From NCBI RefSeq assembly GCF_027158205.1, contig NZ_JAPVLU010000011.1, forward strand, positions 62,001 through 126,000: DNA of 64,000 bases, read 5' to 3'. This document shows, in pieces, positions 9,434-38,065 of this stretch; within the stretch, counting starts at the first letter, position 1, and each line of letters opens with the position of its first letter. The translations under genes were made by a program, and so were the position numbers. Source of the DNA: Streptomyces sp. H39-S7. Its GTDB lineage: Bacteria; Actinomycetota; Actinomycetes; Streptomycetales; Streptomycetaceae. A model generated the notes under the pieces. The model ran no database searches. It was given only the letters and a program-made list of their open reading frames with translations, and had not been told where the DNA came from.

Positions 9434-11311
9434 TCACAGACCGCGACGCTGTAACTGATCACTACCGATTCTGGTGGCGGATACTGCTGCAGGGAAGAAT
9501 CCTGACCTTGCGGACCCGGCCCCGTCGAAGCAGTAGATGCGGGCTTGGTCGATCACGTCGGCGGGCGGGTCGTCATTTTCGAGGATGATGGCCTGGCCCG
9601 GGAAGTTGAGCATCTCTCGGTAGAACTGGTCCACTACGGTCGATGTGAGGTCGACGTCCACGCCGACGGGATCGCTGATCGGATCGCGATAGGTGACGAC
9701 CGGAGAGTCCAGGACGACGAATCCAGGGTGCGGTCGGGAGTAGTCCCGGCAGTAGCGGGCCAGTGCGGTAGTGAACGCCGAGTGCAGCACGGAGCGGACT
9801 CCCTTGCCACGGTTCGCGCGATGCCGGCCACCTGCATGGACGTCCATGGCGTACTGGTCGTATTCCGGGAAATCCACGGACGGGACCTTCCACGATTCCA
9901 AGGTGTGACGGAGCGTGTCGTCAAAGTTCGACAGGATGCGGGTGGGGATGTATCCGGCCGGTCGAGCCGCAGGCCCTGCTTCTTGTCCGTCCAGCCGGGA
10001 GCGTCGCTCCTCGAGTTCGTCGATCCGTGTGTGGAGTTCCAGATTCCGCTCGATGACCGAGCGGGCCTGGAGGCTTTCCTCCATACGCTCGCGCAAGGGG
10101 GCTAGTGACTGTTCGGTCGCCTCGATCTCCCGGTCCATCCGGGCGCTCTCGTCGAGCAGGGAGTTGCGGCGGGCGCTGAGGTGATCGAACTGCTCGCGCA
10201 GGTCCTGGATCGTGGGCAGGAGATCGGCGAGCAGGGCGTGGGTCTTGGTTGCCTCGCTTTGCACTGCGAGGTGCAGTTGTGTGGTCTCCAGCTCACCATG
10301 GTGCGGGTTCTGGTGCTGTGGCTCGGCGCCGCAAAATACGCAGGTGCCTACCTGGAAGAAGCCCAGGAGACTGCCGGCCTCGGTGACCATGTCCAGCCGG
10401 TCAAGGTCCGATCGGTACTGTTCCTCCAGGAGGAGGAACCTGGATACCAGGTCGCCGACTTCGTTGAGGCGTGATTCCAGGGTCGCCAGTTCCTCGGCGG
10501 TCCGCATGCGCGCTGTGACGGCCCGCAGGTGGCGGTCGGTGATGGCGCGCAGGGTGCTGGTGTGTTCGTCGATGGAGGCTTGCAGGAGTGCTTGCCGGGC
10601 GCGCAGTTGGGTGATGTTTTCCTGCGTGGTCAGCTTGATCTGCAGGTCGACGATGATTTGGTCCAGGAGGGTGATTTTGCCCTTGTTGACGCGGCGCTGT
10701 CCGGGGTTCAGTCCGGTCTCGACGTCAGGGTCGCCGTCTCCGGTCAGCAGCAGCCGCATGATCGAGGCTGCCGCGGTCTTGCCGCTGGCGGCCGCCGAGT
10801 GGAGCACCGGGGACAGGGAGTCGACCATCCGTGTCTCTGGGATGACCGACAGGTGGATCAAGTCGGCCAGGGCCAGGCTGCGGGTGGCGCCGGCGTCGTT
10901 CTTGCGGAATTTGTGGTCGGTCAGGTCTAACTGGCCGAGCAGGAACTGCGAGAGGCTGTTCTTGCTGCGTGCGGTGTGTAGGGCCGTCACGGTGGCATCG
11001 GCGGGCCGGGTCACCAGTTCTCTGAGGTCCTCGTGGTGCAGGTAGATGGTGTTGGTGTCCGGGACGCGCAGCAGCGTCAGCGGGCTGCCGTCGGGAAGCA
11101 GCAGCCCTAGAAGGATCTGGCTGTAGCCGTCCGCCTCGGCGACCAGGTCGAGGCGGGCGCCGCCGAGCATGTAGCCGATGGAGTCCGCGATGAACGACTT
11201 TCCTGTGTCCGACGCTCCGTAGATGATCGTCAGTGCCGCGTCGAACTGCACGCTCGCTACCGGCTTACCGGATCCGGCGTAGGTCAGGTGGGTCAGGCGG
11301 AGTTCACGCAC
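9434..11311 (-). CDS. ABC-3C system ATPase (SMC/RecN-like, DUF3732 type)
   Basis: A 625-residue SMC-like ATPase. Walker A GASDTGKS is at 32-39, directly after the short N-terminal strand typical of RecN/SMC heads. A long charged coiled coil runs from about 220 to 470 and includes CVFCGAE with Cys 324 and 327, which could form half of a zinc hook. Walker B (GFVVLDSPVV) is near 530, with a final AIILENDDPP segment. The GTG start at 11311 overlaps the stop of the preceding gene (GTGCGTGA), giving translational coupling. Together with the next two genes this is the full triad of ABC-three-component conflict systems, in which the ATPase senses or loads on DNA and licenses the nuclease-type effector. 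Confidence 0.85.
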   Translation of the reverse strand: MRELRLTHLTYAGSGKPVASVQFDAALTIIYGASDTGKSFIADSIGYMLGGARLDLVAEADGYSQILLGLLLPDGSPLTLLRVPDTNTIYLHHEDLRELVTRPADATVTALHTARSKNSLSQFLLGQLDLTDHKFRKNDAGATRSLALADLIHLSVIPETRMVDSLSPVLHSAAASGKTAAASIMRLLLTGDGDPDVETGLNPGQRRVNKGKITLLDQIIVDLQIKLTTQENITQLRARQALLQASIDEHTSTLRAITDRHLRAVTARMRTAEELATLESRLNEVGDLVSRFLLLEEQYRSDLDRLDMVTEAGSLLGFFQVGTCVFCGAEPQHQNPHHGELETTQLHLAVQSEATKTHALLADLLPTIQDLREQFDHLSARRNSLLDESARMDREIEATEQSLAPLRERMEESLQARSVIERNLELHTRIDELEERRSRLDGQEAGPAARPAGYIPTRILSNFDDTLRHTLESWKVPSVDFPEYDQYAMDVHAGGRHRANRGKGVRSVLHSAFTTALARYCRDYSRPHPGFVVLDSPVVTYRDPISDPVGVDVDLTSTVVDQFYREMLNFPGQAIILENDDPPADVIDQARIYCFDGAGSARSGFFPAAVSATRIGSDQLQRRGL

Positions 11312-11765
11312 GGCTGTTCTCCGTCCACGCGCCGTCGGCGGACGCGCGGTTAAGGATCTCCCGGGTGGCGACCCGGGCGTCCGCAGTGGGGAGGTAGTGC
11401 TGCACCGCCCATTCGGCCCGTTCTCGCAGCGACTCGACATAGGGTGCTTCAAGGACGTCGACGAACACCGGACCCCGGTCGGTAGCCGTGTACATCAAGC
11501 CGTCACTCCGGTCCTCGACACCCGCTAACCCGGCCCTGATCAGGACCAGCAAGGCCTGTTCCAAAACGCTCCGCTTCACCCCGAGTTCTCCTGCCCGCGC
11601 GGGAAGGTCGGGATGCAGGCTGGGCGGCCCGTCGAACTCAGCGCTGTGCAACACGACATGATCCAGCAGCACCAGTTGGGAGAGGTCCAACGGCTCGGGA
11701 TGGGTCTCGGCCAGGAGGACCAGAGCACGCACGCCGATCTCCAACGGGCTGTTGAGTGGGTTCAC
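11304..11765 (-). CDS. ABC-3C system middle component 2 (MC2)
   Basis: A 153-residue protein with the highly recognisable MC2 signature: NPLNSPLEIGVRALVLLAE at the N-terminus, LDLSQLVLLDHVVLHSAEF, SLHPDLPARAGELGVKRSV near 60, and a C-terminal PYVESLRERAEWAV. The GTG start at 11765 overlaps the effector stop (GTGA) and is preceded by AAGGAGGAG. The middle component is thought to adapt the ATPase to the effector. It has winged-helix-like character but no enzymatic residues. It is overlapped on both sides, so the three genes form one tightly coupled operon. Confidence 0.88.
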   Translation of the reverse strand: MNPLNSPLEIGVRALVLLAETHPEPLDLSQLVLLDHVVLHSAEFDGPPSLHPDLPARAGELGVKRSVLEQALLVLIRAGLAGVEDRSDGLMYTATDRGPVFVDVLEAPYVESLRERAEWAVQHYLPTADARVATREILNRASADGAWTENSRA

Positions 11766-12859
11766 TGCTCCTCCTTCTGGCACCAGGTCAGACGGTTGTC
11801 GTTCGCTAAGTGATGGCATACCCCTTTGCGGGCCTTCGGCTGCACGTACGGCGTGAGAACCGTGGGGGTCAGGTGAACGGCGCTGGCAGCGGTGGTCACC
11901 GCTCCGTGGCGCTCCCATCCATTGGGGTAGGCGCAGACCGCCACTTCGACGACGATGTCGTAGACGTCCTGTTTGACCTGCTCGAAGTAGGCGGGGGTGG
12001 TGGCGTCGCGGGCGAACAGGCGCAGGGCCTCAGCGGTGTAGAACGCCTCGCGCTGCCGTTTCAGATGCTCGTCAGCATCCGCGACGTCTGGTACCTGCTG
12101 CAGGGTGCTGATCTGGTCGGGAAACTTCTCGCGGTAGACGTCGAGCAGGCACTGGACGTAGCGGTGTTCGTTCTCGCCGTGCTCGTCGGGCGGGAGGATG
12201 ACCTGCGGCCCGTGGGCGAGCTGGGCGTGCGGGAAGCGTTCGGCCCAGTGCGCGGTGGTGCTGTGGAGCTCGAGCATCTCATCGAGGTCGACGCATTCGA
12301 ACATGGAGAAGTCTGCGGCTGCGGCGAGGGTTTTGACCGCTGCCAATTCATGGGGCAGGAGGTCAGACATCACCTTCTCCTTGGCCGTGGCCAGGTCCTG
12401 CAGGAACCTCTCCTTGCTGTCGGTGGGCTTGGCCAGCAGACGTGGCAGGCTGCGCGCGATTTTCGGGGCTACGAAGACGTAGCGCGTGGGGACGGTGAAG
12501 TGCCCGGCCGCGGCGGCCACGAACATCTTGCGCATCTCCTGGGCAGCGGTTGACCAGGTGAGGGCTGCGCTGTAGCGCTTGCACTGGTAGTTGTGCCACT
12601 GCCCCTCCAATCGGTGCGCTGACAGGTAGCCGGCCACGTCGATGCCATGATCCCCTGAGCCGCCGTGCCGTTCGACCAGGGTGTATCTCGTGTCGAGGGC
12701 CGGCACCCACTCCTTGACGAACACCTCGAACTCGTCGGGGTCGTAGAACGGGACCAGTTGCTTGGGCGAGGGCACCGGTGCCATGCGCAGCGTATGGGGT
12801 AGCACTGTCAGCGGCGGCGGATCTCCCTCCGCCGGTGCTGTCTCCTGCGGGTCCTGCAC
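11762..12859 (-). CDS. ABC-3C system effector with restriction-endonuclease-like N-terminal domain
   Basis: From the GTG at 12859 the protein is 365 residues; an ATG at 12784 is the alternative start. The N-terminal part has FYDPDEFEVFVKEWV followed by HGGSGDHGIDVAGYL and QWHNYQCKRYS, the D...QxK layout of the restriction-endonuclease fold acting on DNA. The C-terminal half (FYTAEALRLFARDATTPAYF onward, to the GWERHGAV region) resembles the ABC-3C C-terminal domain that docks on the other components. It is the first gene of the operon and its stop overlaps MC2. It is inferred to be the toxic nuclease of an anti-invader system. Confidence 0.8.
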   Translation of the reverse strand: MQDPQETAPAEGDPPPLTVLPHTLRMAPVPSPKQLVPFYDPDEFEVFVKEWVPALDTRYTLVERHGGSGDHGIDVAGYLSAHRLEGQWHNYQCKRYSAALTWSTAAQEMRKMFVAAAAGHFTVPTRYVFVAPKIARSLPRLLAKPTDSKERFLQDLATAKEKVMSDLLPHELAAVKTLAAAADFSMFECVDLDEMLELHSTTAHWAERFPHAQLAHGPQVILPPDEHGENEHRYVQCLLDVYREKFPDQISTLQQVPDVADADEHLKRQREAFYTAEALRLFARDATTPAYFEQVKQDVYDIVVEVAVCAYPNGWERHGAVTTAASAVHLTPTVLTPYVQPKARKGVCHHLANDNRLTWCQKEEQ

Positions 12860-13194
12860 CCCGCGCCCCCTTCGTCTGCTGAACACTCGGCAGGCGCCGA
12901 AGACTCTGGCCAAGTGATACCACCCTGCGGGTGTACACGAATAGAGAACAGAGACAGTCAAGGGCTCGTGAGAGCGCAGGCGGGCGATCGGAGGGCGGGC
13001 TCCGATGGGGCGTCCACGGGGCCAGCATCAGAGATCGTGTACCGGTCGCACCGGGTCCGTCGGCTGCCTGCCGGTACCCCGAATCCGGCAGGAGCAGAGA
13101 CGGCTGCAGGCGGCAGCCGCCCGCAGCCTTCCCCACCAGAAGAGGCCGCCCTCACTTTTCCTCACATTCTCTCGATACGAGGTATGCTGCCTGC
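12860..13194. other. Divergent intergenic region between ABC-3C operon and RAMA regulator
   Basis: No gene is supported here. It should hold the promoter of the ABC-3C operon (a TTGACT hexamer lies near 12957-12962 on the minus strand) and the plus-strand promoter described separately. A regulatory link between the regulator gene and the operon is possible but not shown. Confidence 0.4.
13151..13188 (+). promoter_or_regulatory. Leaderless promoter with CTCACTTTTCCTCAC operator-like motif
   Basis: TATGCT at 13183-13188 ends six bases before the ATG at 13195, indicating a leaderless transcript. The -35 region overlaps CTCACTTTTCCTCACATT, which contains two CTCAC units. A near copy occurs before the gene at 13724. 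Confidence 0.55.
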
Positions 13195-14067: not shown

Positions 14068-14643
14068 TCAGTAGTAGAACTCGAGATAGTCAATCTGCTG
14101 CAGTGTGACCTCTTCAAGGGCAGCGGGCCGTCCCGAGCGGTGGAAGTAGCAGCTGGCCAGGGCTTCGCCCAGGGTTTTGTTGAGTTCCGATTCCGGCGCT
14201 GCCCGGTGGCGGGCAGCGAAGAGGTGTTCGGGATGGGGTTCGCGCAGGCTGAGGGTGAGAAAGCGTAGGCGGGGGTCGTCGGTGGAGCCGGCTGCGGAGG
14301 TGAATCCGAACCAGGCGCGGAAGGAGACGGTCATCAATCCGCCCTGGTCCAGGATGGTGCGATGAGCGCTGTGGCGGACGCGGGGTTGCCAACAGCGGAT
14401 AGTCTCCCGCTCCAGTGCCCGATGCAGGGGGTCATCCGTCTGTGGGCGGTGGCTGGCCAGGACCTCCTGCAGAACAGTGGCGCTCACGCTGAGCCGGGCG
14501 GCGAGGGCCTCGGCGGTGGCGTGGTGTTTCAGGAGAAAGCGGAGCTGGGATCGGGCGGATCGGGGCGCTGGGCGTGTCCAGTGGCGGGAGTCCGCGCGAT
14601 CGAGGGCTTCTTCGACGGTATCGGCGTAGAGGGTGATGGGCAT
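14068..14643 (-). CDS. tpg: Telomere terminal protein Tpg homologue
   Basis: The 191-residue protein has the Tpg layout. TRPAPRSARSQLRFLLK at about 23-39 is followed by an HTH-like region (AEALAARLSVSATVLQEVLA). Then come REIRCWQPRVR-type basic residues (ETIRCWQPRVRHSAHRTI), FRAWFGFTSAAGSTDDPRLR near 130-149, and a C-terminal IDYLEFYY. Tpg is covalently attached to the 5' ends of linear Streptomyces replicons and primes end patching at telomeres. The length is close to the usual 184-190 residues. The helix-turn-helix is somewhat divergent. The partner tap lies upstream on the same strand, separated by an oppositely oriented tniQ gene. Confidence 0.9.
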   Translation of the reverse strand: MPITLYADTVEEALDRADSRHWTRPAPRSARSQLRFLLKHHATAEALAARLSVSATVLQEVLASHRPQTDDPLHRALERETIRCWQPRVRHSAHRTILDQGGLMTVSFRAWFGFTSAAGSTDDPRLRFLTLSLREPHPEHLFAARHRAAPESELNKTLGEALASCYFHRSGRPAALEEVTLQQIDYLEFYY

Positions 14644-14712
14644 GGGGCTGCTTTCGGTGGACGAGGTGGGGGTTGCTGAAGCCCCGGTGAAGCGGCGTGG
14701 AGGGGTCGGGGC

Positions 14713-15774
14713 GTGGTGACGGATGATGCTGGTGTGCCGTTGCCTCGCCGGCCCGCCCTGGTGGCCCGGGAGACGACTGCTTCGTTTCTTGGCCGGTTGG
14801 CGGAGATGAATGATCTGGCGTTCGGGGAGTTGACTCGCCGGGTGGGTGGCCCGCGAGGACTCAATGACGCTGATCCTCGGCTGCAGGAGGTGTGGCTGGG
14901 GCCGGTGGCACGCGCCCGGCTGGCCCGAGTCTGCCGCAGGCCGCAGGCCCAACTGGAAGCGGTGCTACCGACGTTGGGCCAGGCCCCGATCACGGCGAGG
15001 GCACGGTGCCAAGTGCGGGTGGAAGCATGGCCTGAGCCCGGACGGCCTGTGCAGGCGTGTGCGCTGTGTATCGCGGGCAAGTCGGAGTGCCCGGTGTGGC
15101 AGGTGTGTGCCGACACGTGGACGGTGTGTACCCGGCACGGTCAGTGGACGGGTGAGGCCGACGGGCGGTTTCAGTGGGGGGTGGCGCGGGCGCCTGAGGT
15201 GGTGGAGGCGCAGGTGCGCAGACAACGCTATGAGCGCAGGACGGGGTTGTACGGGCGCGCCCTGATGGCGGACGCCCTGCAGATAGCCGTCTACTGGTGG
15301 CAGTGTCGGCAGATGGGGTCGCGGGGAGTGTGGGCTGCGCGGCAGGACACCTTGGGGGTGAGCCGCAGCGCGCTGTGGGCGGTGCCGCTGGTGGTGTACC
15401 CGGAGGCGGTGGTGGTTGCGGAGGCGATGGCGGTGCGGGAGCGGCAGCGGGCCTTGGGCCGAAGCTTCGCTGGTGGTCCGGCAGGCTGGACGACGGGCCG
15501 GTGGGTGGAGTGGGTCGGCGCGCGGCTCGAGATGCGCGAGGAGATGGCGCAGGGCGGGCACCGGGCGCTGGAAGCGTGGTTGATGCTGCACCGCAATACG
15601 GTGCCGGTAGTGGAGAGGCAGGCGGCCCCGGCTCCGCCGGCCGGGTACCGCAGTGTGCCGCTGCGGATGCTGGAGCCTCATCGGTCGGTGGCTGCCTTCG
15701 GAGCATTGGAGCAGGTGTCGTGTCTGCCGTGGCGGTTGGGGTCGCCAATGACGAGTGTGGGGCTGCGGGGGTGA
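14713..15774 (+). CDS. tniQ: TniQ-like target-selection protein (first copy)
   Basis: A protein of about 353 residues, with GTG starts at 14713 or 14716. It has the TniQ outline: an N-terminal RETTASFLGRLAEMNDLAFG segment, a zinc-binding pair CALC and VCTRHGQW (about 116-146), and the C-terminal LEQVSCLPWRLGSP. The same landmarks occur in the second tniQ at 24891 (ESTGSFVSRLAAAHG, CELC, VCARHGRW, LEELTCMPWRFG), so the two are paralogues. TniQ proteins choose the target in Tn7-like transposition. The gene is wedged between tap and tpg in the opposite orientation with only about 70 bp and 37 bp to its neighbours. Confidence 0.75.
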   Translation: MVTDDAGVPLPRRPALVARETTASFLGRLAEMNDLAFGELTRRVGGPRGLNDADPRLQEVWLGPVARARLARVCRRPQAQLEAVLPTLGQAPITARARCQVRVEAWPEPGRPVQACALCIAGKSECPVWQVCADTWTVCTRHGQWTGEADGRFQWGVARAPEVVEAQVRRQRYERRTGLYGRALMADALQIAVYWWQCRQMGSRGVWAARQDTLGVSRSALWAVPLVVYPEAVVVAEAMAVRERQRALGRSFAGGPAGWTTGRWVEWVGARLEMREEMAQGGHRALEAWLMLHRNTVPVVERQAAPAPPAGYRSVPLRMLEPHRSVAAFGALEQVSCLPWRLGSPMTSVGLRG

Positions 15775-15810
15775 GGGCGGTGGCGCTTGGCCCGTTTGCT
15801 GATCTGCGGG

Positions 15811-17829
15811 TCAGGGGGAGCGGTCCTTGATGTAGCGGGCGGGGTTGGCTCCTTCGTCGAATATCTGCTGGTACCAGTCGAAGATCCGGGTGCCCTCTTC
15901 TTTGACCCAGCCGGGGTTGACGCCCAGGCGGAACGCTCCTGCGACGGGTGTGCCGTCCTTGGCATGGGGGACCACGTCCAGCGCGGTGGGTTCGTGTGCG
16001 GGGTACAGGGCGCAGTCGGTGAGGACGGCCAGGGGGTAGCGGCCGATCAGTTGGGCGGTCTTGGTCATTTTGCGGTGCATGTTGACGCGGGAGCGGGAGA
16101 TGATCGCGGCGCGCAGGTCGGGTCGCCAAGTCGGGGTGTTCAGGGCGGGCCACGGTTCGTACGGGGCGCGGCGTGGGTCGCGGGGTCCTTCGCGGAGTTT
16201 GCCGATACCGCCCTTGCCGGTGGCTTTGATCGCGGTCAGCAGCGAGCGCAGCGCGGGGTCAGCGGTGGGGAGGGCGTGCATCGCGTCGAGGAAGGCGGCA
16301 GAGGGCATGCCGACAGTGATGCCGAGGTCTTTCATGGTGGCGAGGTAGGCGTCGCGGAGCCGCTCGTACCAAGGGTCGAAGTAGCGAGTGGCGTCGGGTC
16401 GCAGGTACGCCTCCGAGGGCTGCACGGTCATACCGAGTTCGGCGGCGTACGCGAGGGTCGGAGTGGCGTACCAGGCTGGCCCGGTGGGCGGTTGGCCGCT
16501 GGAGGTGAAGGGCGAGGGCAGTGCGGGGTTTGTCTCGCAGCCGCTGAGGTCGCAGTACCAGGAGCCGGGGATTTTCGGGCTGAAGGCGGGCCGGACGACG
16601 TGCTCGGGCGGGGTGTTGGCTCCGACGAGGAGGCCGGAGGAGGAGGACGCAAAAGCCAGGTTGATGTCGATGCCCACGATGTAGGAGTAGATGCGCTCTT
16701 CGTCCGGGGTCGACGGGCGCTTCCAGTCCCAGGCCTCTTCGTCCAGGGCGTCACGCGGGTCGCGGCCTTGCGCGAGGGGGTGCGCGTCGTGGGCTTCGGG
16801 CGGGGCCGGGTCCAGGGGCTGCCACAGGCCGGCGGGATTGGTGTCGGAGTGCCAGGTGCCGTCCTGACTGCGGACGGGGCGGGTGGGCGGCCGCAGGGCG
16901 GTCATGAGGTGCTGACCGCAGACGGCGGTGGATCCGCGGGGGGTCAGGACCCGGTCGGCGTAGGTGCCCAGCAGGCGGGCCAGGACGCTGGGGGTGAGAT
17001 CGGCGGGAGGGTTCCAGCCTCCTTCGGACAACGCGCCCCAGGGGATGACAGCTACCTGGACGCAGCGGCGGCGCCCGGGCTGGGGTGGTTGGTAGATCCG
17101 AGCCCAGGAACCGAAGCCGCTGCGAGGCACATTCCAACGGTCGCTGGTGAGGGCGGCAAGGACGGGGTGGTCGTCGGGCAGGCACAGGCGGGCACGGTCC
17201 TCCAGGGCCGGAGGCAGGCCGAGGTAGTCAGCAGCGGAGGAGACCAGGACCAGCAGAGGGTCCGCAGCACGGTCAAAGGGACTGAGACGCGCCTGACCGA
17301 GACCCGCCTCAAGGGCCCAGTGCAGCACGTCGGGGAAGGTGCGGGCCGGGCAGCGGCGGACGGAGCCGTCGGCGAGATGAGCGGTCAGGCAATCGGTGTA
17401 GGCCAGTACGGCCAGCGGGCCGGCGGGAAACCTGTCGTCGGGTGCCGGCGCGCCGGCACCCGGCCCGTGCGATGGGGTGCGGGAGGCGACCCGGGCCGGC
17501 ACAGAGCTGAGTGGGGTGGGCAGGGGCGAGGACTCGGAGGGCAGCAGCGTGGGCGGGACGGGGGCCGGCTGCGCGCTCTCCCAGGTGAGCAGGCCGTTCA
17601 TAAGGCGGGCGTACGCAGCGCGGTCGATGCCCGCCGACTCGACGAGTCCGCTCTCCCAAGCTTCAGCGAGTTCCGGGGCAGTGCCCAGGGCGTTTGCCAG
17701 GGTGGTCAGGGAGAATCCGGCCGCCAGGCGTAATCGTCGGCGTTCGTCGGGATGCGGTAGCGGGGCGGCCAATTGGGCCAGGAGCGCGTCGACTCCGGCG
17801 AAGACATGGTCACTGGGATCATCAGGCAC
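15811..17829 (-). CDS. tap: Telomere-associated protein Tap
   Basis: The 672-residue protein matches Tap of linear Streptomyces replicons. It has an N-terminal HTH (ERRRLRLAAGFSLTTLANAL), a long central region, IYSYIVGIDINLAFA, PEHVVRPAFSPKIPGSWYCD, GPAWYATPTLAYAAELG, AIKATGKGGIGKLR, and RAAIISRSRVNMHRKMTKTA followed by LIGRYPLAVLTDC near the C-terminus. Tap binds the 3' telomere overhang and recruits Tpg. The length is in the normal range and no frame break is seen. GTG start. In the usual arrangement tap is directly followed by tpg; here a tniQ gene interrupts. Confidence 0.92.
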   Translation of the reverse strand: MPDDPSDHVFAGVDALLAQLAAPLPHPDERRRLRLAAGFSLTTLANALGTAPELAEAWESGLVESAGIDRAAYARLMNGLLTWESAQPAPVPPTLLPSESSPLPTPLSSVPARVASRTPSHGPGAGAPAPDDRFPAGPLAVLAYTDCLTAHLADGSVRRCPARTFPDVLHWALEAGLGQARLSPFDRAADPLLVLVSSAADYLGLPPALEDRARLCLPDDHPVLAALTSDRWNVPRSGFGSWARIYQPPQPGRRRCVQVAVIPWGALSEGGWNPPADLTPSVLARLLGTYADRVLTPRGSTAVCGQHLMTALRPPTRPVRSQDGTWHSDTNPAGLWQPLDPAPPEAHDAHPLAQGRDPRDALDEEAWDWKRPSTPDEERIYSYIVGIDINLAFASSSSGLLVGANTPPEHVVRPAFSPKIPGSWYCDLSGCETNPALPSPFTSSGQPPTGPAWYATPTLAYAAELGMTVQPSEAYLRPDATRYFDPWYERLRDAYLATMKDLGITVGMPSAAFLDAMHALPTADPALRSLLTAIKATGKGGIGKLREGPRDPRRAPYEPWPALNTPTWRPDLRAAIISRSRVNMHRKMTKTAQLIGRYPLAVLTDCALYPAHEPTALDVVPHAKDGTPVAGAFRLGVNPGWVKEEGTRIFDWYQQIFDEGANPARYIKDRSP

Positions 17830-18013: not shown

Positions 18014-18775
18014 GTGGTCAGGGACCTGCAGGTGGTGCATCTGGACGCGTCCGGCAGGACTCGGAAGATACCGGCAGCTCACGCGGGACAGACCCCGCTG
18101 ACGCAACGCCAGCCGGTATGGACGCCAGGGCGGCACCCTTCCGAACGCAGCATCGCGACGTTGTGGTGGTCGGCTACCACTCATGAGCTGGTGGGCTGCC
18201 GGTCGTTGGATCGGCTGTCGGTGGCCATGCTGTTGGATTTCAACCCCGCAGTCGTGGACTTCACCGCGTGGGCAGCGCAGTTGGAGTGGCGGGAACGAGG
18301 CCGGGTACGCACGTTGGTTCCGGACTTCTTCGTCCGCACGGCCACAGGTGCCACCGTTGTGGTGCACTGCCCTCCAGCCGCCGGCCCCAGCAAGCGCTGG
18401 CACGACCAGCGCGAGGTACTGCAGCAGGCCTGTCAGGAAGCGGGCTGGCAGTTGGGGGAACCGCGGGTCCCCGGCCCGATGGCGCAGAGCAATTTGCGGT
18501 GGGTCTCGCGATATCGGCAGCCCCGCAACAGCGATCGTGCCGTGGAACGGGCCTTGTGGCAGGCCGTCACCGCACCGAGGCCGCTCGGCGACATCGTCCG
18601 GGCCTGCGGGGTGCCGCGGCTGCTCGCCCTGCCGCGCCTGTTTCACATGCTGTGGCGGGGCGATCTGTCGATGGACTGGAGCCTGCCGTTGGGGCCTGGC
18701 GCACTGTTGCAGCGCTCGGACCGTACCGCGCCGGCTGCGACCTTCCAGCCCTATTCTCTTATGAGCGCTCAGTGA
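18014..18775 (+). CDS. tnsA: TnsA-like transposase endonuclease subunit
   Basis: The 253-residue protein has the TnsA N-terminal fold outline: HPSERSIATLWW with a candidate catalytic Glu, LLDFNPAVVDFTAWAAQLEW, then LVPDFFVRTATGATVVVH. The Asp of PDFF is present, but where canonical TnsA has QxK after the next strand this protein reads VVVHCPP, so the catalytic Lys is not obvious. The C-terminal part has SNLRWVSRYRQPRN and a winged-helix-like end. GTG start with AAAGG upstream. Its stop overlaps the tnsB start (GTGA). In Tn7, TnsA cuts the 5' ends and works together with TnsB. Confidence 0.8.
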   Translation: MVRDLQVVHLDASGRTRKIPAAHAGQTPLTQRQPVWTPGRHPSERSIATLWWSATTHELVGCRSLDRLSVAMLLDFNPAVVDFTAWAAQLEWRERGRVRTLVPDFFVRTATGATVVVHCPPAAGPSKRWHDQREVLQQACQEAGWQLGEPRVPGPMAQSNLRWVSRYRQPRNSDRAVERALWQAVTAPRPLGDIVRACGVPRLLALPRLFHMLWRGDLSMDWSLPLGPGALLQRSDRTAPAATFQPYSLMSAQ

Positions 18776-21231
18776 ATCGGACCCCCACAGAGCAGCCCTC
18801 GGCACTACCTGCGGCCACCCGTGCGCATCATGGCGTGCTCGCCTCGGGCGACATGATCCGCTGGCGAGGCGAGCTCTACACGGTCGCGAGCCTGGACGGG
18901 GTCACGGTGCAACTGCAGCCGCGGCCGGGCAGCGGCCTGCTTCCGGTGGCGGCGCCGCTGGCTGCGCTGGCCGCCGCTGACGACTTCGCCGTCCTGGACC
19001 CGGACGGCCAGCCCCTGACCCACCTGGTCCTGCCCGACTGGTCCCTGCTGCAGGGCGTCAGTCCCGACGCCGCTGTCGAAGCACGGTTGTGGGAACGGCA
19101 CATCGTCGAGATCGACACCGGGGTCCTGCCCGGGCGGCCGCAGGGCAGTGTGCCGCGGCCGGGCTATGCACCCGAGCAGTTCACGCTGATCGAGCGGTAC
19201 AAGGCCAAGGCCGAGGAGCTCAATGCGGTCCTGGACCTCGCAGTGTCGTGGCACACCGTGCAACGCAAAAGGTTGCTGTACCGGCAGCAGGGGATCTGGG
19301 GTTTGGTCGACAAGCGGCGTGTGCCGGCGCCATCGCCGCACGGGCGCACCGATCCGCGGGTGGTGGACACCTTGCTGGCGCTGGTCGAGCACCGGGCCCG
19401 CCAGTCCACGATCACCGCTCGGGGGCTGTTTCGTCTGCTGCGGCGGGCGGTGCGTTCCACGTGCGGGGAGCAGGTGAAGGTACCGGCCGACTCCACGCTG
19501 TACACGCTGCTGGAGCGGCTGGACATCAAGGTCAAGGATCTGCGCTCCCCCGTCCGCCGCCGGTTGGACCGCACGAACCGGCCGGATCCGCCGTTCGGCG
19601 TGAGCACCGCGCTGGCCCCCGGTGAACTGGTGCAAATCGACTCCACCGACCTGGACGTGAAGGTGCTGGGCGATGACGGCCAGCCCACCTCGGCGGAACT
19701 GACCGCAATGGTCGACGTGTGCACCCGCACGCTGATCGCGGCGGTCGTGCGGGCCAAGACCGCCCGGGGTCGCAAGATCCGCCAGCACAGCAACGCGCTG
19801 ATCGCCGCCCGCCGCAGCACCGGACGGGCCACCAAGGCCGTCGACGCGTGCTTACTGCTCGCCCAGGGGCTCGTGCCGGCCCCGATGCGGCCGGGCTTCA
19901 GCCCGCTGGCGCATGCCAGCGTCTCCGATCTGCCCTATGAGGATCTACTGGAAGCCGACCCGCGGATGGCGCAGGCCGCGGCCCGTCCCATCATCATCCC
20001 GGACATCATCGTCATCGACCACGGGTCGGTGTTCGCCGGGAAGGCCTTCGCAGACGCCTGTCAGTACATGGGGATCTCGGTGCGTTCGGCCCGTCGGCGC
20101 ACCCCCACCGACAAGGCGATCGTCGAGCGGACCTTCGGCGCGGTGAAATCGATGTTCAGCCAGTTCGTGAACACCTACACCGGCAGCGACATCAGTCACC
20201 GCGGCCGCACCCTCGACGGCGAAAGGCTGTGGAACCTCACCAAACTCGACGACATGGTCCAGGAATGGATCGCTCTGGAGTGGCAGAACCATCCACACGA
20301 CGAGCTCCGCAACCCCTACGACCCGAATCTGCCGCCGCTGAGCCCGAACCAGATGTACAGCGCCTGTGTACAGGCGGCCGGGTACCTGCCGGTGCCGCTG
20401 GGACGGGAGGACTATCTGCGGCTGCTGCCCACCGCGTGGGTGGGGGTGCGCGATGAGGGCATCACGTTCAGGAACCGGGTGTACGAGAACCCGCGCGGTG
20501 AACTCAACAACTACCGACACCAACGGTCGGGGCTGGGCGGAAAACGGCGGGGCGGCTGGGAGCTACGCTACAACCCCTACACACCGGAACAGGTATGGCT
20601 CTACGACCACCACAAGAACCGGTGGGTGGACGCGATGTTCCGCCACCAGCACCTCATTGGTGCGCCGTGGACGCAGTACCTATGGGATATCGCCACCGCT
20701 GAGCATGTCGATCGTGGGGGTCGCAAGGACGACGACGGGGCCATCGCGCAGGCGTTGACGGAGCTGTTGGAGCGGGCCGGGCGAGGGCCGGACGAGACCG
20801 CGACGGCGCCCGTGCCGGACGGCTGGGGCCCGGTCCTGCCCGCTGCCGCACCCGGCACGCCCTTCGATCCATACGCCAGCCTGCCGGGCGGCACGGACCT
20901 GCCGCTGAGCGAACTGGATGTGGCCGCCACCGGCATGTACACGCTGCCTGGGCCCGCCGACCTGGCCCGGCGCGGCGGCCACGGACACGATCCGCTGCTG
21001 TTCTCCCCGGCGGCCCAGCATGGTGAGCAGGTCTGGACGCAGGAGGCCATGGACACGTTCAAGGCCGACTACTTCGCCGGGCTGCCTCCCCTGGAAGAGG
21101 ACGGGGTGACGCTGACGGACGATCTGCTGCTGCCCGGCGTCGCTGGTAGCGGGGCAGGGTCAGCTGCCGAACGGTTCGACCTACCCGACGATGACCTGAA
21201 GGATGGACATGAGCCGCCGCAAAATCGATGA
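18772..21231 (+). CDS. tnsB: TnsB-like DDE transposase (Mu/TniA type)
   Basis: The 819-residue integrase-fold transposase has an intact DD35E triad: Asp290 in VQIDSTDLDV, Asp416 in IVIDHGSVFAG and Glu452 in KAIVERTFGAVKS. The N-terminal region holds HTH-like DNA-binding segments (EELNAVLDLAVSWHTVQRKR), and after the catalytic core comes a Mu-type beta barrel (ELRYNPYTPEQVWLYD near 600). The C-terminal tail is acidic and rich in Pro/Leu, as expected for the part that touches TnsC. GTG start in a four-base overlap with tnsA. It cuts and joins transposon 3' ends. Confidence 0.92.
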   Translation: MNRTPTEQPSALPAATRAHHGVLASGDMIRWRGELYTVASLDGVTVQLQPRPGSGLLPVAAPLAALAAADDFAVLDPDGQPLTHLVLPDWSLLQGVSPDAAVEARLWERHIVEIDTGVLPGRPQGSVPRPGYAPEQFTLIERYKAKAEELNAVLDLAVSWHTVQRKRLLYRQQGIWGLVDKRRVPAPSPHGRTDPRVVDTLLALVEHRARQSTITARGLFRLLRRAVRSTCGEQVKVPADSTLYTLLERLDIKVKDLRSPVRRRLDRTNRPDPPFGVSTALAPGELVQIDSTDLDVKVLGDDGQPTSAELTAMVDVCTRTLIAAVVRAKTARGRKIRQHSNALIAARRSTGRATKAVDACLLLAQGLVPAPMRPGFSPLAHASVSDLPYEDLLEADPRMAQAAARPIIIPDIIVIDHGSVFAGKAFADACQYMGISVRSARRRTPTDKAIVERTFGAVKSMFSQFVNTYTGSDISHRGRTLDGERLWNLTKLDDMVQEWIALEWQNHPHDELRNPYDPNLPPLSPNQMYSACVQAAGYLPVPLGREDYLRLLPTAWVGVRDEGITFRNRVYENPRGELNNYRHQRSGLGGKRRGGWELRYNPYTPEQVWLYDHHKNRWVDAMFRHQHLIGAPWTQYLWDIATAEHVDRGGRKDDDGAIAQALTELLERAGRGPDETATAPVPDGWGPVLPAAAPGTPFDPYASLPGGTDLPLSELDVAATGMYTLPGPADLARRGGHGHDPLLFSPAAQHGEQVWTQEAMDTFKADYFAGLPPLEEDGVTLTDDLLLPGVAGSGAGSAAERFDLPDDDLKDGHEPPQNR

Positions 21232-22252
21232 CGAGGTAGTCCGTGACCTCGTCGAGGGCCCGGCCCGGCGCCGCCCGCCGGAACCGGAGTGGCGTGACAC
21301 GCTGCCCAACTGGCGGGCCTCCTGCGACCGGGTCCTGGACCCACCCGACCTGGCGGACTGCGCACCGCTTGGCCTGCCGGTCACCGATGACGATCCGCGG
21401 CTGCTGTTCCACGGCAGCATGCGCCCGGTGGCCACCCCGGCCATCAACCAGGCCCTGCTCGTGGTGCGGACCCAGCTGCAGGCTAACGCCCGGCGGGAAA
21501 CGGGCCGCATCGGCGTCATCATCGACGGGCCCAAGAACACCGGCAAGACCATGTTGATGCAGTACATCGGCCGGCACTACGAGATGCGACTGAACGAGCT
21601 CTACGAGCGGGACGAGGACCGCATCCCGGTCATCGCGCTCAGCGTGCCGGCCCAGGGCCGGGGCGGAGCGCGCAACTGGGCTGCGGCGTTCGCCTACTTC
21701 CTGGGTCTGGAGCGGGACGGGGGCAGCGACCCGACCAAGTCGATCTGCCACGTGATGAAGCACTGCCGGACCCAACTGGTCCTCATTGATGGCATGGAGC
21801 GGCTGCAGCCCGGCGCTGATGTCCAGCAGACCTTCGCATTCCTCGAACACATCAGCGACGAGACCGGTGCCACGTTCGTGTACTGCGGGCGCAACAGCCG
21901 TTCCATCGTGGACCCGATGACCCGCGACCGGGCCACGAAACTGGAGGACAACGAGGACCCGTGGGGCGATCATCCGGTGCTGTGCACCAGCCGGCTGGGC
22001 TACGACGATACCGGCCGCGACAAGTTCCGCCGCATCGTCAACAAGTTCGACAAGGACCTTCGGCTGCACCACCACGAGCCCGGTGACCTCACCCGGCTGG
22101 CCCCGGTCTTGCACCTGCGCAGCAAGGGGTATCTGCGGGCGCTGTCACAACTGATCTGTCAGGCCGCGCAGCGGGCCATCTTGACGCAGGAGGAACGCAT
22201 CACCGAACAGCTGCTGGACACCCTCGCCGTGGGTCGCACCATCGCCATCTGA
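21203..22252 (+). CDS. tnsC: TnsC/TniB-like AAA+ regulator
   Basis: The 349-residue ATPase has Walker A GPKNTGKT at 109-116 and a Walker B-like TQLVLIDGME. Further motifs such as FVYCGRNSRSI and a lid rich in Arg/Leu follow. Its start overlaps the end of tnsB by 29 bp, so tnsA, tnsB and tnsC are one coupled operon. In Tn7-like systems this protein links TniQ/target to the transposase and gives target immunity. It ends convergently with a helicase gene 41 bp away. Confidence 0.88.
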   Translation: MDMSRRKIDDEVVRDLVEGPARRRPPEPEWRDTLPNWRASCDRVLDPPDLADCAPLGLPVTDDDPRLLFHGSMRPVATPAINQALLVVRTQLQANARRETGRIGVIIDGPKNTGKTMLMQYIGRHYEMRLNELYERDEDRIPVIALSVPAQGRGGARNWAAAFAYFLGLERDGGSDPTKSICHVMKHCRTQLVLIDGMERLQPGADVQQTFAFLEHISDETGATFVYCGRNSRSIVDPMTRDRATKLEDNEDPWGDHPVLCTSRLGYDDTGRDKFRRIVNKFDKDLRLHHHEPGDLTRLAPVLHLRSKGYLRALSQLICQAAQRAILTQEERITEQLLDTLAVGRTIAI

Positions 22253-22293: not shown

Positions 22294-24669
22294 TTATCGG
22301 CGGGGGCTGTCTTGCCCGGGCTCGGGGTGCGCGGGTGGGCGGCCGCTGGACGAGCCGGTGCGGCTGAGTTTCGGGTCCCACACCATGTACAGGCCCTCCA
22401 GGGCCCGCCGCTCCTCATCGGTGAGCTTTTCAGGAGCCTTGCGGACTTTGTGAATCCAGGCTCCAAGGTTGATCAGCTGCTCGCCCCAACTGGGCTCGTG
22501 GTGCCGGCGGGGAACGTTGAGGTTGCCCTCCCGCGCGAGGTAGTTGGCCGCGGCGCAGAAGTATGTACGGAATTCGTCGCGCCGGTCCGTGCCGACTTCG
22601 CCGCGGTAGAGACTTTCCGCGTTAGGTCCGATGTGGATGCTCAGGAGCAGTTGGGCCTGCGCGGGGTGCAGGGTGTGGAAGTGGTTGCGCTGGCGGTTGA
22701 GCCACTGTCCCAGCGGGGTGCCGTCGCTGGTTTTGTACGCGTTGGGGACGTGGCCGGTGCCGTGGACGGCCACGTACGCGGTGGCGGTGGCGTAGGTGCG
22801 GCGCCAGGTGACCGGGAAGGGCGGGTCCCACCACGGGTCGATACTGCGCAGGATCTCGTCGTGGGCCGCGTCCAGTTGTCCGGCGCGGGCCTTTCGCCGG
22901 CACTCCCCCAGCCAGATGCCGATGCGGTGTCCCCCGATCTCTTCGTGCTGTGCGGCGCCGAGGTGGCCGTGCCGGGCGGCATAGGCCCGAGCGTGGACCA
23001 GCATGCGGGCGAAGTCGCCCTGCGGGGTGGTCCAGAGCATGCCGAGCGCGTCGAGCGCCGTGCGGTGGGAATCTTCGAGGCGGCCTGCGATGTGGCGCAG
23101 CCGCTGATTGCTGACCCACTCCCCCAGGGCGAAGCCTTCGGTGTCGCGGTAGTCGGCGGGCACGTCGAGGTGCCCCAGGGTGTGGTGGTAGGCGGTGGCG
23201 GCGGGCAGGGCCTCGTCCCAGGCGCCGGTGGGGGGCAGCGTGACTTCCAGGCCGAGGGCCAGGGCGATCTCCAGGGCGCGCTCGGGAGCGTTGTAGTAGG
23301 TGCTGCGGGCCGGGCGCCCGGAGGGTCCGCTGCTGTGGGGCATGGCGACACGGTCGAGGTAGGTGTCGTCGTGGGCGCGCAGGGCCTGCAGGATCGACCA
23401 CAGGCCGGAGAATTGCGACTGCTGCAGCGCCTGGTGGGCGGTTGCCCCGTCGGGCAGGAACACCGGCACCACCAAGGTCGCCTTCTTGCCGGCGCCCGGG
23501 GCTTGGCGCAGGGCCCGGCCGATGGCCTGGATGGCGTCGATGACGCTCTTGCGGGCGGCCGCGAAGACCACAGCATCGATCGTGGGGATATCGACGCCTT
23601 CGTTGAGGACGCGGACGTTACTGAGCACCGCCTGCGGGCCGGCCCCACCGAACGCTGCCATTAGCCGGCGGCGCTGGGTGGCCGGCTGCGCGCCGTAGAC
23701 GCAGTTCGACCACAGGTCGGGGATGTGCAGGTCGCCGACGGCCTGGGCGGCGGTGGCGGGCAGCGAGGCGGCAAACGCGTTTGCGGCGGCGACGCGGTTG
23801 TGGAAGACCAGGACGCGCCGCAGGTCGTGCTCGCTGATCGCGCGCAGGACGGCGACCTGCAGGGCAGCGGCGCGCAGCCCGTTGTGGTGGGCGCTGTCGG
23901 CTGGTTTCGCGGTCAGGATGGAGCGCAGGTCGTGGTCGCGGACGATGGGCATCACCACCCGGTAGTCAGCGAGGATGCCGCGTTCGATGGCGTCGGCCAG
24001 CCCCAGGCGGTAGACGGTGGGACCGTAGATGTCGAGGCGGTCCATGGTGGCGGTGGGTGCGGCCTCCGCCAGGTCGGCGAAGGTGCTCAAGGCTGCGGGG
24101 GTGTTCCAGATGCGGGGGGTGGCGGTGAGGTAGAGGCGCAGTTTGGCGGGCAGGGCGGTGTCGTCGTGGATGGTGCCCCAGCCCTGCCCCAGCTTCATGC
24201 AGGTGCGGTGCGCTTCGTCGATCACGATCAGGTCCCAGGCCGGCAGGTCGTGCTGGTGGTGGGCCTGGCGGATGACGCGCAGGGAGGCATAGGTCACGAA
24301 GACGGTGAACGGTCCGGCACTGCTGCGGCTGATCTCGGCCACGTGGGCGGGTTCGTTGCTCATCACGGCCTCGTCCCGGGTCAGGCCGCTGCGGTGCTGC
24401 TGCAGTGAGGAGATGCCCAGGGCCGGCCCGCGGCGGCCTGCTTGGCGCCAGCGCTGGATCGTCTGGGTCAGCAGGTCCAAGGTGGGCACGGCTACCAGAA
24501 CCGCCCCGTTCGCAGCCAGCCGCTGCGCGGTCTCCGCAGCGGTGCGGGTCTTGCCCGTTCCGCACGCTGACACCACGGTGGCGCGGCGCTCTCCGGCTTC
24601 GAACGCGGCCACGGCAGCATGGACCGCTGCGATCTGATGCGGCCGTAGAGCGGGAGGAGTAGCAGCCAC
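22294..24669 (-). CDS. DEAH helicase with helicase-associated (HA) repeats, first copy
   Basis: From the GTG at 24669 (AAGGAA at correct spacing) the protein is 791 residues. It has a superfamily 2 core: Walker A SACGTGKT at 34-41, DEAH at 151-154, LYLTATPR, and the motif VI region DAIQAIGRALRQ. The C-terminal third contains at least four HA repeats of about 65-70 residues, each with a W...GEW/GxWLxxQR core (for example GFALGEWVSNQRLRHIAGRL, PLGQWLNRQRNHF). Such helicases are frequent on actinomycete plasmids and chromosome ends. It lies between tnsC and the second tniQ. A second, diverged relative occurs at 57.1-59.5 kb. Confidence 0.88.
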   Translation of the reverse strand: MAATPPALRPHQIAAVHAAVAAFEAGERRATVVSACGTGKTRTAAETAQRLAANGAVLVAVPTLDLLTQTIQRWRQAGRRGPALGISSLQQHRSGLTRDEAVMSNEPAHVAEISRSSAGPFTVFVTYASLRVIRQAHHQHDLPAWDLIVIDEAHRTCMKLGQGWGTIHDDTALPAKLRLYLTATPRIWNTPAALSTFADLAEAAPTATMDRLDIYGPTVYRLGLADAIERGILADYRVVMPIVRDHDLRSILTAKPADSAHHNGLRAAALQVAVLRAISEHDLRRVLVFHNRVAAANAFAASLPATAAQAVGDLHIPDLWSNCVYGAQPATQRRRLMAAFGGAGPQAVLSNVRVLNEGVDIPTIDAVVFAAARKSVIDAIQAIGRALRQAPGAGKKATLVVPVFLPDGATAHQALQQSQFSGLWSILQALRAHDDTYLDRVAMPHSSGPSGRPARSTYYNAPERALEIALALGLEVTLPPTGAWDEALPAATAYHHTLGHLDVPADYRDTEGFALGEWVSNQRLRHIAGRLEDSHRTALDALGMLWTTPQGDFARMLVHARAYAARHGHLGAAQHEEIGGHRIGIWLGECRRKARAGQLDAAHDEILRSIDPWWDPPFPVTWRRTYATATAYVAVHGTGHVPNAYKTSDGTPLGQWLNRQRNHFHTLHPAQAQLLLSIHIGPNAESLYRGEVGTDRRDEFRTYFCAAANYLAREGNLNVPRRHHEPSWGEQLINLGAWIHKVRKAPEKLTDEERRALEGLYMVWDPKLSRTGSSSGRPPAHPEPGQDSPRR

Positions 24670-24890
24670 ACGATTCCTTAGGATCTGCCTCGCGGCGCCC
24701 AGCACGCAGCGCGTTATGATCCTGGACCCTATGCAGGAACCGCCTCCTTGGCGGTCAGAACCAGATATGCCGGACGGATCGCCGCCTGAGCGCAGGGCAG
24801 TTGAGCCCGGACCCGGCATGATCTTCGTTCTACGGCGGCTCTTGCGCATGGCACGTAGTGCGCAGACGGGTTGACGAAGGAGCGGGCACC

Positions 24891-26015
24891 ATGGTGAAGG
24901 TCGCGAAGAAGGCCGGTACCCGCGGCAGGGTCTGGAAGCCGGTGGCGGCGCATCCCCGCAGGGTTCGTCTGATCGCGCAGGAGTCGACCGGCTCGTTTGT
25001 GTCCCGGCTGGCCGCCGCGCACGGCATGTCCTGCGGCGAGTTGCTGGACGTGGTCGGAGCCGGCACCGTAGCGATGGAGCCGCAGTTCACCGAGCTCTAC
25101 CTCAACGCAGCCGCACTGGAACGGTTGGCGGACGTGTCGGGCCACAGTCGGGACGTCCTGCAGCACACGCTGCCGAGTCTGGGCGCGCACCGCCTGCTGC
25201 CCGATGATGGCGGCCCGCGGTGGACGTGGCCGCAGTGGCAGGCCCGCGGGGTGTTCCTGGTGCGGGCCTGCGAGTTGTGCACCGCATCCCTGCGCATGCC
25301 GCACGAGGTGTATCTGGTCTCGACGACCCGGTGGCGGGTCTGCGCCCGCCACGGCCGCTGGCTCGACAACCTGCGCGAAGGAGGCAAGACCTGGCTGTGC
25401 CTGCGGGCGGTGCCCGAGGTGATGGAGGCCCACCGGGGTCGGATGCTGCTTGAGCGGCGTCTGGGCGGCGGGGGCCGTGTGCTGTTCGCGGACGCCCTGC
25501 ACATCGCCGCGCTGTGGTGGAACCTGCCCCATCTGTCCCCGCCGGTATGGGGGCAGCGACAGGCGCGCCTGCAGGCAGGCGGGGGTGGTGACCTGCGGGC
25601 AGCGGCACTGGTCGCCTACCCCGAAGTGGCGGACCTCGCCAGGGCTTTGGCGGCCCGCGAACGGCGCCGGATGCGCGGCTCGTGGACCGATGCCGACGAT
25701 GATGGCTGGCTGAACAGCCTGCGGGGCCGGCTGGAGGACTGGCAGATGCCGTCGTCGCACGCTGTTCTGCCCCTGTCCCAGTGGGCAGCACAGCACAGCG
25801 CGCCGACCGGAGGGCGAGCGCCGGGCAGTGACCTGGAGCAGGCGAACCGGCGCCCCTCCCGAGGGCGGTACCGGCGCCTGCCCGCTACGTATCCGCACGG
25901 GGCACCGGTGACAGACGCCCATCTGGAAGAGCTGACCTGTATGCCCTGGCGCTTCGGCGAGGATCCACCCGAGCTGGATCCGGCGTTTCTGTGGTCGATG
26001 GTCGGCCAAGCCTGA
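24891..26015 (+). CDS. tniQ: TniQ-like target-selection protein (second copy)
   Basis: The 374-residue protein starts at ATG with GAAGGAG eight bases upstream. It has RLIAQESTGSFVSRLAAAHG near the N-terminus, the zinc pair CELC (about 127) and VCARHGRW, and the C-terminal LEELTCMPWRFGEDP. It is paralogous to the gene at 14713 and divergent from the helicase. Two TniQ proteins with one TnsABC set suggests two target routes, as in some Tn7-like elements with more than one TniQ; which one serves this transposon is not known. Confidence 0.78.
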   Translation: MVKVAKKAGTRGRVWKPVAAHPRRVRLIAQESTGSFVSRLAAAHGMSCGELLDVVGAGTVAMEPQFTELYLNAAALERLADVSGHSRDVLQHTLPSLGAHRLLPDDGGPRWTWPQWQARGVFLVRACELCTASLRMPHEVYLVSTTRWRVCARHGRWLDNLREGGKTWLCLRAVPEVMEAHRGRMLLERRLGGGGRVLFADALHIAALWWNLPHLSPPVWGQRQARLQAGGGGDLRAAALVAYPEVADLARALAARERRRMRGSWTDADDDGWLNSLRGRLEDWQMPSSHAVLPLSQWAAQHSAPTGGRAPGSDLEQANRRPSRGRYRRLPATYPHGAPVTDAHLEELTCMPWRFGEDPPELDPAFLWSMVGQA

Positions 26016-37299: not shown

Positions 37300-37807
37300 G
37301 GCCCAAGCCCAACGACACCGTTCCGGACCCGACGGACGACAAGTTCTCCGGTGCTCGTCCCACCTTGCGCCCGGGGCACCCCCCGGCCTGGTTCATGCAC
37401 AGGACCGCCATCACGTTGTCGGCGAGAACGCCACGTCCCCGCGCGCCCCAGCGAACCACCGTGGCGCGGGTCATACAGCGCGCGGCCGCCGGCCCACTGC
37501 GACAGCTCGGTGATCAGGGCGACCCCGTCGTCGATTTCCCCCGGCCGCGGCCTGCAGACAAGCACCGGCCCTTCGACTGCACCGTACGTCTGGTGCAGGG
37601 TCTCAGTGTCTACAGCACCGATGCGGGGGCGGTCGCACTCCATCCTCAGTGCGCACCCCAGTACGCAGATGAACCGCGCCTCCGGCATCGGGTGTGCACG
37701 CTCTCACTCGTCTCCAATTCAAGCTAAGTACCTATGTAGTTGCAACACTGTCCAATTGAACTGCCGCACCACAGGTCAGTGATGTAGTCCCACTGCGCGC
37801 GGCTACA
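37300..37807. other. Gene-poor stretch with hairpin
   Basis: Open frames on both strands lack family resemblance. Around 37720-37790 the sequence is AT-richer than average. A 9-bp inverted repeat (GTGATGTAG / CTACATCAC) with a 15-nt loop lies at 37779-37787 and 37803-37811, possibly a terminator or an old recombination site. Confidence 0.4.
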
Positions 37808-38065
37808 TCACCCCAGTTCACAGGCCCTCTGAGCTCTACCGAAAGATTTACCGCACCCCAGGTCAACAATGTACTGATGCGGCAACTGTGCCGGTAAACG
37901 ACAGCCGAGAATCACAGGGCCGTACTGGCCGATGTCCGCGACCGTCGATGCGGGCAGCACGTCCGCACGCAGACCCTCGCCGCGCAACGCCTCGCCGATC
38001 ATCTCAGCGATCCCGGCGGTCGAGTTGTTCTTCGTTCCGTACGCGACGAGTACACGCTCACTCAT
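37808..38065 (-). pseudogene. Truncated flavodoxin-like gene
   Basis: The first ~54 residues match the start of flavodoxin-type FMN proteins (RVLVAYGTKNNSTAGIAEMI with the phosphate-binding TKNNST loop, then DIGQYGPVILG). The frame then turns to unrelated sequence and stops at 85 residues, whereas family members need about 150 or more. It is the remnant of a once complete gene, adjacent to IS debris. Confidence 0.65.

Follow-up and report, generated by a model that had tools for sequence, protein, structure and literature searches.

A TniQ-family gene between tap and tpg in a putative Tn7-like telomeric transposon of Streptomyces sp. H39-S7

Gene arrangement at the locus and its recurrence

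The locus described here lies in a 64,000-nucleotide stretch of DNA from Streptomyces sp. H39-S7 (the window, G000:C22:62001-126000, where G000 is the strain's own genome and C22 its contig; other genomes, contigs and loci are given by their G, C and L numbers). The telomere-associated protein gene (tap) and the terminal protein gene (tpg) keep their usual order and strand, and a TniQ-family gene, tniQ1, lies between them in the reverse direction, with spacers of only 69 bp to tpg (divergent starts) and 36 bp to tap (convergent ends), as the original prediction had described (Table 1). Directly beyond tap, also as predicted, is tnsABC (18014-22252), and after it come a helicase gene and tniQ2, which also encodes a TniQ protein; TnsA, TnsB, TnsC and TniQ are thus all present together, as in a Tn7-like transposon. 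We read the locus, with a probability of roughly 0.8, as the part that controls a Tn7-like telomeric transposon, which extends from a telomere to one internal end and carries TniQ1 in its telomere module. The start codons of tpg, tniQ1 and tap were placed by our own reading of the sequence. Since tniQ1 is convergent with tap and divergent from tpg, the latter may either have its own promoter within the 69 bp or be transcribed by read-through of the antisense tniQ1.

Table 1. Features of the element within the window (window coordinates).
Feature	Position	Strand	Supporting match or remark
tpg, terminal protein of the telomere module	14068-14643	-	NCBIfam NF047541, 147 bits (cut-off 90)
tniQ1, TniQ-family gene between tap and tpg (353 aa)	14713-15774	+	Pfam TniQ PF06527, 38.4 bits (cut-off 27)
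tap, telomere-associated protein	15811-17829	-	NF047542, 860 bits (cut-off 600)
tnsA-like endonuclease subunit	18014-18775	+	NF033179, 158 bits (cut-off 110)
tnsB, transposase	18772-21231	+	rve and Mu-transpos_C, both below cut-off
tnsC, ATPase	21203-22252	+	PF05621 TniB, above cut-off
Helicase with helicase-associated repeats	22294-24849	-	PF03457, PF04851, PF00271
tniQ2, second TniQ gene	24858-26015	+	PF06527, 43.4 bits
Internal transposon end, three TnsB-type repeats (37766, 37808, 37853)	37691-37903	+	Last bases ...AAACGACA; host flank from 37904
Cargo, LmuB of a Lamassu-like pair	9434-11452	-	PADLOC LmuB, 484 bits
Cargo, LmuA of the same pair	11762-12961	-	PADLOC LmuA, 310 bits

The arrangement recurs well outside this strain. 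Twelve loci with a close TniQ1 relative were compared, comprising the window, G139, a linear plasmid of Streptomyces laculatispora, and nine loci from a scan of the genome collection (including G286, G217 and G294). All 12 have tpg-tniQ1-tap in identical order and orientations, with the 11 other TniQ1 relatives sharing 49–79% identity with that of the window, and an arrangement kept to this extent is not due to chance. The genes tnsA-tnsB-tnsC lie beyond tap in all 11 loci with enough sequence (L103 stops inside tap). The recurrence raised by the original prediction is therefore borne out, the arrangement being neither peculiar to this strain nor separate from tnsABC.

Within the genus, TniQ1 matches (E ≤ 1e-10) were found in 3 of 35 genomes, with only the window's own gene being close, and across the family sample they occurred at 45 places in 38 of 394 genomes. 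All five places with at least 64% TniQ1 identity (the window being one) are embedded in a tap-tpg pair. The remaining 40 are not, judged by coordinates among the tap and tpg matches listed. Standard Streptomyces tap-tpg pairs share the NCBIfam families, order and strand of the window genes and differ in the gap, which is ~1.2 kb with tniQ1 in the window. Among 30 standard pairs chosen by hand (weaker or broken pairs, e.g., G393:C134, G160:C1 near 17 kb, G201:C29, and further G090 copies, were left out), 29 had 42–158 bp between the profile matches and the remaining pair had 548 bp, compared to 1167–1232 bp in the five embedded pairs. Elsewhere in the sample, TniQ genes lie 15–23 kb from contig starts in G168, G178, G182 and G154, with mirrored pairs on one contig in the first three; no full tap-tpg pair is nearby among the matches listed, and in G182 a partial match resembling tap lies at a distance of 9 kb.

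In TnsB, D290, D416 and E452 are unchanged across all 11 loci compared and by our own reading form the DDE triad; the TnsB of the plasmid relative is annotated as a Mu transposase C-terminal protein. TnsC keeps its Walker A lysine in 9 of 11 loci and has methionine instead in L108 and L043. The zinc ligands of TniQ1 (C116, C119, C139 and H142, in CxxC and CxxH motifs) are invariant across 12 sequences. A TniQ1 sequence profile returned no matches among solved structures, and given a mean predicted local distance difference test (pLDDT) score of 49 for the predicted structure, the model fold is not usable. The helicase belongs to the transposase core in some relatives, and a gene related to it (42–43% identity) lies nearer the telomere at G000:C22:5624-7885 (L007), with similar genes in G294 and G139.

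Several other features were noted in passing. The Lamassu-like cargo (9434-12961) sits on the telomere side of tpg, and tandem repeats of ~129 bp, 85–92% alike, run from window position 62697 past 64000 (C22:124697-126366). The genome also contains a standard tap-tpg pair (G000:C106:12891-15685; tap 1098 bits), a divergent tap-like gene (G000:C101:5261-7567; 351 bits, below the cut-off), and two more TniQ-domain matches (G000:C85:34231-34635 and, below the cut-off, G000:C59:57981-58298), each with a TniB match nearby.

Boundaries of the element

Given the telomere-like start of the contig and a transposon end at C22:99903, the element spans C22:1-99903 (~99.9 kb), of which the last 37.9 kb lie inside the window. 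The first 260 bp of C22 contain five palindromes, compared to a maximum of two in 836 other sequence windows, and the corresponding contig ends of G294:C21 and G286:C37 contain seven (maximum of two in 383 others) and four (maximum of two in 361 others), respectively. These palindrome-packed ends, with CCTGACGG-type centres, bound the element on the same side in G000, G294 and G286, i.e., in three of the five elements.

The internal end was first spotted at the junction of the G294 element with a standard tap gene, which is cut short at profile position 383. This end matches C22:99714-99905 (59% over 195 bp, E = 1e-5), and GCACCCCAGGTCA-type repeats are spaced 87–88 bp apart in the ends of G000, G294 and G286. 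A profile of these three ends recovered that of G139 (E = 1.2e-5) along with another copy, located at the beginning of C23 in the strain's own genome, and the G217 end was located by eye. The border bases are GACA in all six ends. Each of the five elements (G000, G294, G286, G139 and G217) has one internal end, and a five-sequence profile (E ≤ 5) detected no further end in C22, G294, G139, G286 or G217, its extra matches being just the reverse strand of the known G139 and G217 end places. The mapping of ends suggested by the original prediction thus yielded a TnsB-type end at window position 37903 and no Tn7-type pair of ends with TnsB-type repeats; the boundaries that were mapped enclose tap and tpg. 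A candidate nested end near C22:117.5 kb was discarded, as the terminal features are missing there.

In the strain's own genome, the terminal 126 bases of the element occur on two different flanks. The identity of contigs C22 and C23 covers exactly 127 bases and stops one base beyond the border, where the two sequences diverge; this looks like a branch point of a short-read assembly graph. An uninterrupted relative of the C22 flank is present in G021, and one of the G286 flank in G217 (92.5% identity). We considered whether C23 contains the missing far half of the site interrupted in C22 and rejected this, given that the C23 flank mismatches (by eye) the far side of the uninterrupted G021 site. 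The sequence beyond the interrupted C22 site, when sought in the strain's own genome, gave 11 matches of 66–76% identity on other contigs.

Discordant histories of the telomere module and the transposase core

Module trees and distances were computed from 11 loci, with L103 omitted and L105 represented by its first 619 TnsB residues alone. Between G139 (L051) and G217 (L105), synonymous distances (dS) were 0.15, 0.13 and 0.04 for tnsA, tnsB and tnsC, and 2.2, 0.65 and 0.65 for tpg, tniQ1 and tap, making the first set close and the second old (the methods are mixed, with several values of the nonsynonymous to synonymous ratio, dN/dS, from NG86 in place of YN00). Between L102 and L109, the region from tnsA through the helicase and tniQ2 is mostly 88–99% identical in 150-bp windows, and tpg, tniQ1 and tap are 53–87% identical. 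In both pairs, the shift in identity is sharp at the 5′ end of tnsA.

The distances of TniQ1 across the 11 loci correlate best with those of Tpg (0.976) and Tap (0.967), followed by TnsA (0.908), TnsB (0.825) and TnsC (0.801). By the approximately unbiased (AU) test, the Tap+Tpg tree is acceptable for the TniQ1 alignment (0.267), and the TnsABC tree is rejected by it (9.5e-10); the TnsABC data reject both other trees, and the Tap+Tpg data reject the TnsABC tree. Based on these discordant trees and the identity shift at tnsA, we take tniQ1 to share the ancestry of the telomere genes, and tniQ2 that of the transposase core. Despite the physical linkage of tniQ1 to tnsABC, its tree goes with tap and tpg, and TniQ1 is best assigned to the telomere module.

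Each module is also seen on its own. The core (tnsABC, helicase and tniQ2) occurs without tap, tniQ1 or tpg beside tnsA at G008:C53, G161:C30, G302:C1 and G104:C84, where the stretch compared beyond tnsA is short (0.6–3.7 kb) in three of the four. Among the matches listed genome-wide, there is no tap on C53, C30 or C84, nor near the locus in G302; a partial tpg lies ~15 kb from the G161 locus among the matches listed.

On the other side are relatives of TniQ1 itself. An unrooted tree built from 42 TniQ sequences groups the 12 TniQ1 proteins in a clade (support 0.995), and a further split (0.986) unites them with a group of eight against the rest, the placing of this group as sister of the TniQ1 clade depending on midpoint rooting. 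Six of the eight genes (on G209:C3 (L136, L137, L122), G345:C34, G348:C41, G257:C32, G201:C54 and G021:C194) share a contig with a tpg-tap pair and lie outside it, and in these pairs tpg comes first, with the genes overlapping or abutting. For the other two (G046 and G180), no tap or tpg is among the matches listed on their short contigs. A ParA-like gene lies between tap and tniQ in both loci examined (below the cut-off in G348; Pfam CbiA over the cut-off in G201), and a ParB-like gene was matched in G201, the counterpart of which in G348 has no family match.

None of these six contigs (21–56 kb) showed TnsA, TnsB or TnsC at E ≤ 0.01 when searched whole with profiles built from the 11 loci, which detected four tniQ2-type controls not used to build them at 1e-98 or better. 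These profiles were used instead of TniB and Mu C-terminal searches, the silence of which was set aside because they missed the known TnsC and TnsB of G139 and G286. There were also no rve matches on the six contigs, other kinds of transposase not having been searched for. A palindrome cluster is present on at least one end of four of the six. Contig G209:C3 (55,672 bp) has five palindromes at each end, compared to two inside, and with clusters at both ends is probably a whole linear plasmid.

A probable telomeric transposon and the place of TniQ1

In the account that we favour, TnsA and TnsB would cut and join at the internal end (window position 37903), and the other boundary of the element would be the end of the replicon, which the Tap and Tpg encoded by the element would maintain. 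A linear replicon that takes up such an insertion would thereby gain a new telomere cap. In this account tniQ1, tap and tpg have been passed on as one unit through exchanges of tnsABC, and TniQ1 would probably link the telomere complex to TnsC. We infer an active element, a part for its telomere side in transposition, and contact of TniQ1 with telomere proteins or DNA.

A number of observations weigh against this account. The contig ends of G139 and G217 have no palindrome cluster, and contig G217:C158 (L058-L060, L093, L094) has exact direct repeats of 588 bp at its ends, as if the replicon were circular, or misassembled. The telomere sequence of C22 is whole just once in its own assembly, with two other matches of ~40 bases, so that the body of a second copy of the element would be collapsed or absent and is unseen in the assembly. 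The telomere side has no host flank on which the 5-bp target duplication of a Tn7-like transposon could be compared. The three-end profile also had a weak extra match in G294 (77170-77202, E = 0.32), which was gone with the five-sequence profile. Some copies of the element may be inactive, given that tnsB in G217 is divided over two reading frames and that the Walker lysine is replaced in 2 of 11 TnsC proteins. As for TniQ1, the Tap+Tpg data reject its exact topology by the AU test (2.3e-4), not by the Shimodaira–Hasegawa (SH) test (0.055), that topology having weak nodes. Lastly, because tniQ1 sits between tap and tpg, joint inheritance is possibly purely positional.

This last point underlies the strongest rival, to which we give slightly less than even odds. 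Here TniQ1 would be an ordinary adaptor for TnsC whose gene by chance became trapped in the tap-tpg pair, and it would not touch the telomere. Any exchange of both flanking genes must bring tniQ1 along, so that position alone enforces joint inheritance and this explanation stays strong. No other TniQ was detected in the elements of G139, G286 and G217, where TniQ1 should therefore serve TnsC, and the TniQ zinc ligands are retained. Less readily explained by trapping are the gene order, which is unchanged in all 12 loci even where TniQ1 identity is as low as 49%, and the nearest other TniQ group, where six genes lie near but outside a tpg-tap pair with no detected TnsABC on the contig and trapping does not apply.

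The heredity of TniQ1 suggests an extra tie to the telomere complex. More tentatively, and in our view with the odds against it, TniQ1 could represent a telomere-associated TniQ lineage that works with Tap and Tpg on linear replicons, including some linear plasmids that lack a detected Tn7 transposase. Within telomeric transposons it would then form a hinge between a telomere module and a TnsABC core that can each be swapped, for instance by TnsC recognising Tap/Tpg-bound DNA via TniQ1.

The suggestion in the original prediction that a TniQ protein directs insertion to telomere-related DNA, e.g., resident tap genes, has fared less well, and we regard it as improbable. The G294 element end does break a standard tap gene, and another tap-tpg pair lies ~65 kb and ~14 kb from the insertions in G139 and G217, respectively. 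However, the six flanks (C22, C23, G294, G286, G139 and G217), one of which, that of G294, lies within tap, have no motif in common when compared by eye over 25 bases, nor do they show a fixed attachment site of the Tn7-like kind, and a fixed target, telomeric or other, is thus not supported. The uninterrupted relatives of the C22 and G286 flanks were not recognised as tap or tpg, no family search having been made. In addition, the loss of essential genes alone would restrict surviving insertions to the chromosome arms, and so nearby tap-tpg pairs are no proof of telomere targeting.

Very improbable is a two-ended Tn7-like element with tap-tniQ1-tpg as passive cargo and a telomere nearby by coincidence, since for all the Tn7-like tnsABC and TniQ and the presence of cargo such as Lamassu, each element has a single end cluster with no second end found, and the telomere-like contig end lies on the same side in three of five; of the capture of telomere genes as cargo that was originally proposed, what stands is that tap and tpg lie inside the element (C22:1 to C22:99903), as a telomere module and not as passive cargo.

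The favoured account of a telomeric transposon places the element in a class that is known. Telomeric transposons of linear bacterial genomes are reportedly described by Hsieh et al. (Science 387, eadp1973, 2025) and are said to combine a transposase with telomere-maintenance genes, to have one specific transposon end with a telomere as the other boundary, and to use two ends, the telomeres probably being bridged. The window element is alike in having telomere genes, one specific end and a telomere boundary.

The class is already in print, being cited in PMC13228271, and PMC12669027 mentions a kind of telomeric transposon that lacks TniQ-TnsD. Telomere and tap-tpg turnover in Streptomyces is treated in PMC7205883 and PMC8743542. 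In Faure et al. 2023 (PMC10293859), Tn7-like elements with two TniQ/TnsD genes resemble the window element in combining TnsA, TnsB and TnsC with two TniQ proteins and in an end that reads TGTC... inward. The tniQ genes of those systems are in tandem, whereas those of the window element are 10 kb apart and in different modules, and neither a second end nor a common attachment site was found for the latter. We recognised no description of a tniQ gene between tap and tpg in the literature searched, and Hsieh et al. 2025 may have one. The inheritance of TniQ1 with tap and tpg, and of tniQ2 with tnsABC, seems to be new.

With one TniQ going with the telomere genes and the other with the transposase, these elements would offer a handle on how telomeres and transposition are coupled. 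TniQ proteins may also serve linear replicons in some way other than transposition, an idea made testable by the contigs that carry tap-tpg and tniQ with no detected TnsABC.

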